A stretch of DNA of 64,000 nt from Argopecten irradians (lineage: Eukaryota > Mollusca > Bivalvia > Pectinida > Pectinidae): contig NC_091145.1 of the NCBI RefSeq assembly GCF_041381155.1, positions 41,257,697 to 41,321,696 of the forward strand, given 5' to 3'. Under the pieces are notes generated by a model. The model did no database searches. It saw only the letters and a program-made list of their open reading frames with translations, and was not told the origin of the DNA. The translations under genes were made by a program, and so were the position numbers. Shown piece by piece: positions 4,501-57,469 of this stretch (the first letter of the stretch is position 1; the number at the start of each line of letters is the position of its first letter).

Positions 4501-7500
4501 CCATATTGTGTAGATCATATTTCATTCCATGATAGCACGAACATGTTCAAAATCAATTTTACACTAAAGTTTGTATAACTTTTATGTACCGTATCAAATG
4601 GCAACATTATTTAATGTAAAGTTACATAAGTGATGAAATCCAAATTAGTTGAGTTCAGAGATCCTCCAGTTATACTTTAGGAAAATGAAGCAAAAATTTA
4701 GGGCATTTTGCTTTGTATTTTCCAGAAAGTGCTTGTTCTTCCAAGTCGGACAGTTGGATTTCCACAGGAAAACCATCCAGTCCTAGAGAAGTGAACACCG
4801 GCAGTGAGGGCCAGTCTAGTGTAGTATTTGATGAGCTTTCTAGTATATCTACTGTCAAAAAGGGTGACTTCACTGACAATAGAACCATAGAGGCATGCAA
4901 GGGAGCCACCGACTCGATACAACCCCTCAAAGACATCAACACACAGGTAAATAATTTTATACTTCTTTTATAGTCAATGATTACTTGGCATGTGATAGAG
5001 ACCGTTATGGACATCAGTTTTCCAAGTGACACTATTCATCAACTCATTTTATCAAACTTTCTGAGAACTCTTCATTGTTTTATTAAGGTACTGGTATAAA
5101 TGTATTCTTGTCATATTGCTTCATAATTATGAATTGCAGCAAATATAAAAATAGAAACAATTTATTAGTAGCTAAGTCAGAATTGTTTCCATTACAAGGG
5201 CAACTTGTTAAAAGAGTAAGTTTTATTAGGACTAAGTTAACAATACTGTAAAAGGTCATAGTGTTATCCTGCAGAAGGCAGTGCAAGTAATATTACAGCT
5301 AAGGAAATTCTATGTTTTAGTATCAATTGTGAGCTAAAATAACTATTTATCATCACCAAACTTGTTTTCATGTGCAATTTATTTGTGAGTATTTCTCAGA
5401 CGATAGAGAGAAAAAAATTACAATGAAACAAAAATGAACTGCATGTAAGTAAAGTGTTTTACTCGGTACCATTGTGAAATTGAATTGATGTAAATATGTC
5501 GCAGTGAAAATTAGTTGGTCTACAGTGTTTTACAATATTTGTCTGGCATTAAGCACCTTACACCTGCATATTACATGTTGTTATTTATAGAAACCTACAT
5601 GCAAAGTTTCTCCAATGAACAAATCTAAGGAGTTAGAGCAAGTTGTCTCCCCTGGTAACACAGGCCTGGATAATCTCGGCAATACCTGCTTCATGAACAG
5701 CGTTTTACAGTCATTGGCTAATACCAGGGAATTCCGTGACTTCTTTTACAGTAAGTAACTGTCCTAGCCCAAATAACAGGAAATTCTGCGACTTCTTTTA
5801 CAGTAAGTAACTATCCTAGCCCCAATACCAGGGAATTCTGTGACTTGTTTTACAGTAAGTAACTGTCCGAGCCCAAATACCAGGGAATTCGGTGACTTAT
5901 TTTACAGTAAGTTACTGTCCTAGCCCCAATACCAGGGAATTCTGTGACTTCTTTAAAATTTACAGTAAGTAACTGTCCTAGCCCCAATACCAGGGAATTC
6001 TGTGACTTATTTTACAGTAAGTAACTGTCCTAGCCCCAATACCAGGGAATTCTGCGACTTATTTTACAGTAAGTAACTGTCCTAGCCCCAATACCAGGGA
6101 ATTCGGTGACTTGTTTTAAAGTAAGTAACTGTCCTAGCCTCAAAACCAGGGAATTCTGTGACTTATTTTACAGTAAGTAACTATCCTAGCCCCAATACCA
6201 GGGAATTCCGTGACTTTTACAGTAAGTAACTGTCCTAGCCCCAATACCAGGGAATTCCACTTCTTTTACAGTAAGTAACTGTCCTAGCCCCAATACCAGG
6301 GAATTCAGCGACTTTTACAATAAGTAACTGTCGTAGCCCCAATGCCAGGGAATTCCGCAACTTTTACAATAAGTAACTGTCCTAGCCCCAATACCAGGGA
6401 ATTCCGCGACTTGTTTTACAGTAAGTAACTGTCCTAGCCCCAATTCCAGGGAATTCTGCGACTTTTACAATAAGTAGCTGTAAATTTTACTGTCTTTAAA
6501 AGTCCAAATTACAGGGAATTCTGAGACAGTGTTGATGTTGATTGTATCACATATTCACCTTTGTAAAGAACTGTGAAATGGGGGCATATCATGTAGCTGT
6601 GTCCATTTTGTTGTGCTTCTCTAAGCACAAGGACAATTACATCTGAAAGTAATTACCTCAAAGTATCTTGATAGCATGAACATAAACATTTTTAAATGTG
6701 CATCAGATGAAGCACATGGAAAATTACATCTGAAAGTAATTACCTCAAAGTATCTTGATAGCATGAACATAAACATTTTTAAATGTGCATCAGATGAAGC
6801 ATGGAAAAGTCGTGACATACTCCTCATTTATAACTATAACAGAAAGTGAAAATGTAAACCTCAAGTGTGAAAACATATAACTATAACAGAAAGTGAAAAT
6901 GTAAACCTCAAGTGTGAAAACATATAACTATAACAGAAAGTGAAAATGTAAACCTCAAGTGTGAAAACATATAACTATAACAGAAAGTGAAAATGTAAAC
7001 CTCAAGTGTGAAAACATATGACTATAACAGAAAGTGAAAATGTAAACCTCAAGTGTGAAAACATATAACTATAACAGAAAGTGAAAGTGTGAAAACATAT
7101 AACTATAACAGAAAGTGAAAATGTAAACCTCAAGTGTGAAAACATATGACTATAACAGAAAGTGAAAATGTAAACCTCAAGTGTGAAAACATATAACTAT
7201 AACAGAAAGTGAAAATGTAAACCTCAAGTGTGAAAACATATAACTATAACAGAAAGTGAAAATGTAAACCTCAAGTGTGAAAACATATAACTTGTACTAA
7301 ACATAAAAAGTCAAAAACATTAACAGAAAGTGAAAATGTGAAACCTCAAGTGTGAAAACATATAACTATAACAAGTAAAAGTGAAAAATGTAAACCTCAA
7401 GTGTGAAAACATATGACTATAACAGAAAGTGAAAATGTAAACCTCAAGTGTGAAAACATAACTTGTACTAAACATAAAAAGTATAAGAAAAATACAACTG

Positions 7501-55900: not shown

Positions 55901-57469
55901 TGGGTGTAACAAGCATAAACAAATCATCCCGCAGTGTTGGAAGGCCAAGTGAAGATGGAGATAGTGTTTTTGATGGTAAGTGATGATGGAGAGATAGAGT
56001 TTTTGATGGTAAGTGAAGATGGGGATAGTGTTTTTGATGGTAAGTGATGATGGAAATAGTGTTTCTGATGGTAAGTGAAGATGGAGATGGTGTTTTTGAT
56101 GGTAGGTGGTGATGGAGATAGTGGTTTTGATGGTAATAAGAAATAAGAATAATGAGATACAGAATTTTGTTACTCCATATACTAGATGTAAATACAATAT
56201 ATGCAAATTTAACATTAAATAAAGTATGATTATGTATATATTGAAGAAATACTTCTACCAAATATTTTCAATTATTCTAAATCTCTTATTCCAGATGATC
56301 CTCCCAGAAGTTACCCTCCACCCCCTCCTCCGTATGAACGTTATGACAGGTCATCACGGAGACCTCGGGACGACTATGATGGCCGCAACCGAAGACATGA
56401 TCGTTATGATAGTAGAGATGAGGATTATGACAGAAAATACATTAATAGGGACCGAGGTGATGATAGGTTTGATCGACGACCACGGAGAGAAATGGACAGA
56501 AACAGAAGAGATCCTTCTCCAAGGCGATCTTTCTACTCTGATTCTAATTCAGAGATGGAATCTTCGTTTGTACAGGCCGAGGATGATCATCCCCAAGAGC
56601 AATTTGTGGAGAGGATCATCGAGCCCCGTGTCAAGACTAAAGCCAAAGTGAAGAAGCCGGTTACAGAGGATGTGTATGATGAACTGAGTGAGGATATCGA
56701 GGCTATAAAACACAGCAGTGTACAATGTGACCCATCAGACGATAACGAGTCCAACACAGAAACTACAGACGATGACACGTCTGAGACAGAGTCCGACTCA
56801 GACACGGAGAAAAAAAAGAAAACAGATCCGAGAATGGCTTTATATTCCAAACCAAATAAAAAAGGGAAAGGAAAGAATGCCCCACCACGTCAGTCACAGC
56901 CTGATGTGGCTGTAAGTCTTCCTGCTCCGGTATTCCCCAACACAGGCTATCCTATTGCCAGTCATCCGATGGGTGGTCAGTCAATGGTTGGTCAGCCAAT
57001 GGCTGGTCATCCGATGGGTGGTCATCCAATGGTTGGACAGCCAATGACCACAGGTAGACCGCCAGTCCCTGGCATTATACCAGGGGTGATTGTGAGGCCA
57101 GCTAACCAGCCACAGTTTGCCCCCGGTCAGTATCCTCCTGTGATGAGACCTGCAGTTGCCATTCAGCCCGGAGGCCAAATGCAATACCGGCCCGTACAAC
57201 AACAGCCAAACTATCCAGCAGGAAGACTGCCACAACAACCAGTCCCACAAAAGTCCCAGCCTACGCAGCCCCGCATGGCTTCCAATCCTCCCAAAGATCC
57301 ACCCATGTTTTCTCACCTGGTACAGCGAGGGTATAATACAGGGAGGTACTCTCCCGCCAGTTCAGCGGTCAGTAGTGATGCCCATGTGATCAACCTCACG
57401 GATGACTCAGAGGGCGGGGCTAACCTTCCGAGTGGTGTTGACCTTATGAAGAGGACCACAGATGTATAA
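52976..57469 (+). CDS. Single-pass membrane protein with CUB-like ectodomain and charged cytoplasmic tail (682 aa, 5 exons)
   Basis: Function unknown; divergent paralogue of the gene at 33975-41928. Coding exons: 52976-53087, 54242-54480, 54862-55003, 55595-55975, 56295-57469; phases join to 682 residues. The exon with the start opens at 52940 after attttacag, so 5' UTR lies upstream. The signal peptide is MFSIWTTPLWVLLLAPLGVS. The ectodomain (about 22-193) has CUB-like strands (TDCNKKFDLG, KSCEITF, VSFYIYDSS, GGFVTFKLVK) but lacks the second CUB Cys pair; another Cys pair, DECPNGEGPGC, precedes the membrane segment at 194-218. The tail starts CCYRKSQGVNRRWDEFKLGQ. It contains a PPPY motif (SYPPPPPPYERY), an Arg/Asp/Tyr-rich region, an acidic Thr/Asp/Glu stretch and a Met/Gly/Pro/Gln-rich part with 'HPMGGHPMVGQPM'. 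Confidence 0.87.
53206..54180. repeat. 60-bp then ~50-bp minisatellite with internal palindrome
   Basis: About 7 units of 60 bp (53206-53640), then shorter diverged units. The core is 'tgaggactagtggtcaaata' followed by 'acttgaccactacttgaccc'. 'TGGTCAA-TTGACCA' is an inverted repeat within each unit. Occupies most of the first coding intron of the plus-strand CUB-like gene. Confidence 0.95.
55004..55560 (+). repeat. ~21-bp minisatellite of exon end plus donor (about 25 copies)
   Basis: Follows exon 54862-55003, which ends 'agtgttccag' with donor gtaagattat. The unit is 'gttccaggtaagattataa' plus 'at' or 'gt', so nearly every unit has AG/GTAAG. Variants: 'gttctagg', 'attcctgg', 'gtaagatcat'. 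Confidence 0.96.
55976..56140 (+). repeat. ~31-bp repeat of exon end plus donor (5-6 copies)
   Basis: Exon 55595-55975 ends 'gatagtgtttttgatg' followed by gtaagtgatgatgg. The exon end from 'gaagatggagatagtg' to TTTGATG plus the donor is repeated five times before the sequence diverges. Reading through gives Gly-Lys-stop. Confidence 0.95.

Follow-up and report, generated by a model that had tools for sequence, protein, structure and literature searches.

Donor-spanning tandem arrays of the mirage type in a 64-kb window of the Argopecten irradians genome

By virtue of their position across exon-intron boundaries, a set of tandem arrays in the scallop Argopecten irradians repeat both the end of an exon and the 5' splice site (donor) that follows it. 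The stretch analysed here, the window, comprises 64,000 nucleotides (G000:C12:41257697-41321696) and contains USP19 on the plus strand together with two smaller genes, gene B on the minus strand and gene C on the plus strand. Six of its 33 donors lie inside an array that repeats the exon end and the donor and stops in the same intron. Junction arrays look common and donor-tilted in this mollusc genome of 845.8 Mb in 1508 contigs (the sixteen largest measuring 34.5-75.5 Mb). By the features tested, the finding belongs with the boundary-spanning arrays known from amphioxus as mirages; what is new is the mollusc host, a frequency that has been measured, the bias toward donors and the difference in size between donor and acceptor arrays.

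Donor-spanning arrays in the window

Arrays were called by Tandem Repeats Finder (TRF), blind to the finding, and splice sites were placed by hand. The arrays begin 31, 17, 47, 34, 13 and 29 bases ahead of the donor at USP19 exons 9, 16 and 18, gene B exon 2 and gene C exons 3 and 4, respectively. Their units are 21-55 bases long with consensus sequences that differ from one another, and a shared mobile unit was rejected on that ground. The arrays, with one acceptor-side feature, are as follows.

5720..6464, plus strand: donor-spanning array, USP19 exon 9; TRF 52 bp x 14.4; unit of 31 exon and 21 intron bases; GT intact in 11/13 later copies
11734..15512, plus strand: donor-spanning array, USP19 exon 16; TRF 40 bp x 94.5; each unit with 17 exon bases; GT intact in 92/93 later copies
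16133..16245, plus strand: donor-spanning two-copy duplication, USP19 exon 18; TRF 55 bp x 2.1; 47 exon bases; AAG common to both unit edges
39165..41046, minus strand: donor-spanning array, gene B exon 2; TRF 51 bp x 36.9; 34 exon bases; GT intact in 33/36 later copies, the last copy having GC rather than GT
54991..55572, plus strand: donor-spanning array, gene C exon 3; TRF 21 bp x 23.2; 13 exon bases; GT intact in 23/25 later copies
55947..56136, plus strand: donor-spanning array, gene C exon 4; TRF 31 bp x 6.1; 29 exon bases by the TRF start; GT intact in 5/5 later copies
11545..11655 (limits approximate), plus strand: degenerate acceptor-side copies before USP19 exon 16; alignment score 42, a value that about 1% of mismatched pairs attain

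A preliminary description of this DNA had counted seven donors with junction arrays. Six of these stand on TRF calls and hand-placed splice sites (5751, 11751, 16180, 41012 on the minus strand, 55004 and 55976). The seventh, at 22445, was dropped: it has a single degenerate copy about 70 bases on, TRF makes no call there, and the alignment of exon end to intron is not above the null. Acceptor-side copies had been claimed for two introns, and the claim holds for the USP19 exon 16 acceptor at 11655; no second intron stood out. That the arrays drive intron growth is upheld by the array at 11734, which by itself makes up about 3.8 kb of the intron it lies in.

Each gene was assembled with the first copy of the donor at every array. 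The exons that precede the donors under discussion are listed below.

5591..5750, plus strand: USP19 exon 9; donor starts at 5751; open frame over 26 exons, junction without indel against ten homologues
11656..11750, plus strand: USP19 exon 16; donor starts at 11751; frame and homologue alignment
16064..16179, plus strand: USP19 exon 18; donor starts at 16180; frame and homologue alignment
22278..22444, plus strand: USP19 exon 25; one faded junction copy at about 22484-22515, left out of the count (no TRF call, within the null)
41013..41254, minus strand: gene B exon 2; donor starts at 41012; five exons in a single frame
54862..55003, plus strand: gene C exon 3; donor starts at 55004; five exons in a single frame
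55595..55975, plus strand: gene C exon 4; donor starts at 55976; five exons in a single frame

Assembled by hand in this way, the 26 exons of USP19 give a single frame of 1240 residues that matches UCH, CS and MYND in Pfam. Its highest-scoring relatives are mostly from molluscs, with Mercenaria, Haliotis, Mactra, Solemya, Gigantopelta and Pomacea in the top ten. Genes B and C, with five exons each, likewise give one frame apiece; a Pfam search returned no match for either product. The two products share 21% identity across 243 residues (E 1e-6), and judging from sequence the genes are probably diverged paralogues whose arrays nevertheless differ in junction and unit. The three gene contexts had been called unrelated; the genes themselves are USP19 and two weakly similar neighbours.

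In all six cases the array lies downstream of a first-copy donor that leaves the reading frame unbroken. For USP19, to which the homologue comparison of junctions applies, the junctions of exons 9, 16 and 18 were aligned with ten homologues, among them seven mollusc and brachiopod sequences, a hemichordate and two amphioxus or vertebrate sequences, and were free of gaps within 15 residues. Since these alignments are without indels, the extra copies at the three USP19 junctions appear to be intronic. From reading frame, and in USP19 from homology, we infer that the first copy would be the donor in use.

The array frames of genes B and C deserve a separate remark. At 39165-41046 (minus) and 54991-55572 (plus) the open frames continue from the exon, and the 51- and 21-base units would encode repeats of 17 and 7 residues if later donors were used.

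One alternative is that the arrays are exonic, or alternatively exonic, with later donors used and in-frame repeats added to the protein. In genes B and C the arrays do fall within long ORFs (40377-41363 and 39152-40396, minus; 55029-55490, plus), and of 14 unit lengths eight are divisible by three (binomial P 0.058). However, the USP19 homologues have no such insert, units of 52, 40, 55 and 31 bases shift the frame, and the open frame of gene B is split into two ORFs, and an exonic reading is hardly probable. In the aligned arrays taken together, later copies have changed bases at 40/1548 donor, 114/3142 exon-derived and 38/2222 intron-derived positions. The donor bases of later copies are thus kept no better than the rest, which fits unused copies. 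The same count bears on the idea that donor redundancy is selected, with the copies binding U1 snRNP, strengthening exon definition or shielding long introns from premature polyadenylation. While GT is intact in most later copies, as listed above, the donor bases overall are kept no better than their neighbours, and selected redundancy of this kind is very unlikely.

The frequency of donor-spanning arrays was compared with chance under a strict criterion, by which an array must start no more than one unit from the donor and must not run beyond the intron that follows. When the arrays were rotated, the mean was 0.35 for donors and likewise 0.35 for acceptors, and none of 11,620 rotations reached the six donors observed. 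Independent placement avoiding exons gave a mean of 0.45 and a maximum of 4 in 3,000 placements. By the same criterion, none of the 33 acceptors in the window is spanned by an array. When the array start was allowed anywhere in the exon, the mean rose to 1.88, and six or more were reached in 34 of 3,456 rotations.

Junction arrays outside the window

Because the window was picked for a striking pattern, data from outside it matter more. The outside sample comprised loci at fixed positions (L001-L018), a locus where the junction of USP19 exon 9 has a dispersed copy (L019), and 13 USP-family loci (L020 and L025-L036) drawn from genome matches to UCH without viewing their repeats. Among 102 predicted exons, seven donors are spanned by arrays against a null of 1.71 (P=0.00075); they belong to L004 (OTU), L009, the minus strand of L019 (ABCA-like), L020, L025, L027 and L030. 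The plus-strand array of L019 was excluded as a copy of the window's own. In the same exons, three acceptors are spanned (L028, L032 and L035) against a null of 1.74 (P=0.25). The USP-family subset gives 4/74 donors (P=0.036) and 3/74 acceptors (P=0.125), and the remaining loci give 3/28 donors and 0/28 acceptors. A fully automatic count without L025-L036 finds 3/30 donors and 0/30 acceptors, with a null of 0.62 (P=0.028). Pfam supports the exons of L004, L019, L020 and L030, at L030 without a break at the junction, and the exon next after that of L025.

Five further arrays were selected by donor motif alone and then traced toward their 5' side. Two of them, at L023 (guanylate cyclase) and L024 (mitofusin), sit at coding junctions with Pfam support, and L038 sits at an open frame that has no Pfam match. 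No exon was found on the 5' side of L021, and the array of L022, followed with L037, is still running after about 1.6 kb.

Genome-wide, pairs were counted in which a motif is followed by itself after 10-40 bases (for CAGGTAAGT, recurrence within 19-49 bases), with the motif read backwards as control. The donor motif CAGGTAAGT gives 1869 + 1387 = 3256 pairs against 38 + 82 = 120, AAGGTGAGT gives 513 + 551 = 1064 against 34 + 16 = 50, and the acceptor-type motif TTTTCAGAT gives 82 + 311 = 393 against 70 + 84 = 154. Single sites number 19,404 against 5,409 for CAGGTAAGT and 24,327 against 13,419 for TTTTCAGAT, so that the pair excess per site is 7.6-fold for the donor motif and 1.4-fold for the acceptor motif. 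Among the first 100 sites listed for each, more than two sites occur at 4 of the 64 loci with the donor motif and at none of the 97 with the acceptor motif (Fisher p=0.024); three of the 97 have two.

Several points weigh against a general donor tilt. The pair counts tally one large array many times, and the acceptor side of the motif test is a single motif, TTTTCAGAT. For four of the seven outside donors (L019 minus, L025, L027 and L030) the exon end was placed manually, by homology, once the sequence had been viewed, and the exon finder is rough, recovering 14/25, 3/4 and 1/4 donors when each window gene was left out. The array of L009 has two copies and its exon has no Pfam match. Finally, the 55 arrays of the random-position loci show no enrichment of the strong donor motif (6 observed, 4.2-5.0 expected).

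This last result also favours plain chance, by which arrays in a minisatellite-rich genome would fall at donors as at any other intron position and tolerance by splicing would decide which survive. Tandem arrays do occupy 38% of the window, and the looser criterion raises the window expectation, as given above. On the other side, the strict nulls are exceeded both in the window (6 against 0.35-0.45) and outside it, as is the motif expectation per site, and chance is quite unlikely as the whole explanation. The proposed recurrence of arrays with unrelated units at splice junctions is supported and exceeds chance; a genome-wide scan of donors, run here in sampled form, left it standing.

A further source of doubt is the assembly. 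Identical or near-identical USP-family exons occur at L027 (minus, 1969-2109 and 3013-3153) and at L036 (minus, 1235-1937 and 2446-3146), and reflect either a recent tandem duplication of a segment or haplotypes duplicated by the assembly. Such pairs, 1.0-1.2 kb apart, lend some weight to the reading that junction arrays are artefacts of repeat expansion or haplotype duplication. Yet different junctions and units are affected on several chromosomes and the copies within arrays differ, so that an artefact is the least probable of the explanations weighed, and highly improbable.

Both boundary types are affected: in addition to donors, arrays span the acceptors of L028, L032 and L035, and degenerate copies precede 11655. 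Sizes differ, with TRF copy numbers of 2.0-257 for 13 donor arrays and of 2.0, 2.1 and 2.5 for the three acceptor arrays (Mann-Whitney p=0.043), although the numbers are small and the 257-copy figure is a 12-base TRF unit inside a longer repeat. Turnover is seen at L019, 1.4 Mb from the window, where positions 246-740 (plus) form a 495-base copy of window positions 5458-5946, the junction of USP19 exon 9 plus adjoining intron sequence, at 96.6% identity and antisense inside the ABCA-like gene. Its units correspond to window units 1, 2, 4 and 5, with unit 3 missing; the copy being one unit shorter than the window, array units appear to be gained and lost.

Known systems and a proposed origin

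The preliminary description took the process to be undescribed. In two amphioxus studies, however, tandem arrays across exon-intron boundaries are already known as mirages, in Adh3 and the globins BflGb6 and BflGb9 (PMC3087553) and in TnC and PGBD5, added later (PMC3902484). The likeness extends to minisatellite-like, boundary-spanning units that are unrelated between genes and carry AG/GT signals in many copies (PMC3087553, PMC3902484). Mirage mRNA is reported there as normally spliced, with which the frame and homology of the window arrays would agree. As described there, mirages concern few genes and both boundaries, with 3 to 6 units in BflGb6; unlike them, the present arrays have a mollusc host, a measured donor excess, and tens or hundreds of units at donors with about two at acceptors. 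No report of mirage arrays in molluscs was found in the open-licence literature searched.

The second system for comparison, which the preliminary description had invoked, is the gain of introns when AGGT segments are duplicated in tandem (Rogers 1989; Hellsten 2011; potato RdRp). It too involves tandem duplication taking in splice signals (PMC4974935), but it creates a new intron whereas the window copies lengthen an existing one. In USP19 and in genes B and C the array stops before a separate downstream acceptor, so the duplicated segment is not the source of both donor and acceptor. Every array follows a first-copy donor that keeps the frame and no separate new intron is seen, and intron gain was rejected as a reading.

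A single human gene is said to offer a parallel: in IFI6 (6-16, G1P3), as reportedly described by Turri in 1995, an exon-end minisatellite with a 12-base unit supplies many donor-like sites.

The arrays are probably minisatellites of the mirage type, that is, ordinary short duplications that happened to cover an exon-intron boundary and were filtered by splicing. In a genome already rich in minisatellites, slippage or microhomology-mediated copying would produce a small duplication at a junction, as the AAG at both unit edges of the two-copy case at 16133 suggests. If the spliceosome takes the first donor, later copies would be intronic and invisible to the protein, and could expand to tens or hundreds of units through unequal exchange or slippage. 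Duplication of an acceptor would place extra AG sites before the true exon; this would be harmful if it grew, and hence would stay at about two copies. We read this as similar seeding at donors and acceptors, with growth allowed only where extra copies sit behind the used site.

Beyond the splicing filter, a further cause is needed for the excess of arrays at donors relative to other positions in introns. The leading candidate, still a tentative one, is re-seeding, whereby purifying selection keeps the exon-plus-donor copy intact as a permanent template. Mutation bias linked to transcription or R-loops at 5' splice sites is possible though doubtful, a sequence-intrinsic or sampling cause is unlikely, and selection for donor redundancy is decidedly unlikely as the source of the excess. 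In its boldest form, which we regard as speculative, the 5' splice site in this lineage would be a hot spot of tandem amplification, with about 1 in 15 donors carrying an array. Some process linked to transcription or splicing would seed the arrays, or they would be re-seeded again and again from the exon copy, which is under constraint. Were this hot spot real, junction arrays would rank among the main ways in which introns lengthen, and across the genome they would form a natural experiment on how the spliceosome selects the first among many equal donors.

Should splicing faithfully take the first donor where as many as about 94 near-identical ones follow each other, these genes would provide a ready-made test of 5' splice site choice: under a first-transcribed-first-bound rule, or one of exon definition, the first copy is expected, and under an intron-proximal rule a later one. 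Together with the contrast between donors and acceptors, the frequency would turn an amphioxus curiosity into a measurable force on intron length. For annotators, junction arrays would be a caution about false alternative donors.

Other repeats near genes

A 7-kb array at 45922-52916 was considered as donor-derived and rejected; it has the donor-like motif CAGGTAAGA on the minus strand, and no exon was found there. Its units are 32 bases long and it stops about 24 bases short of the acceptor of gene C exon 1 (52940). At 23269-23372, a 35-base x 3 repeat starts at the USP19 stop codon and extends into the 3' untranslated region. Outside the window, arrays at L028 (minus, 3528) and L031 (299-311) begin 10-14 bases past the donor and leave it uncovered.

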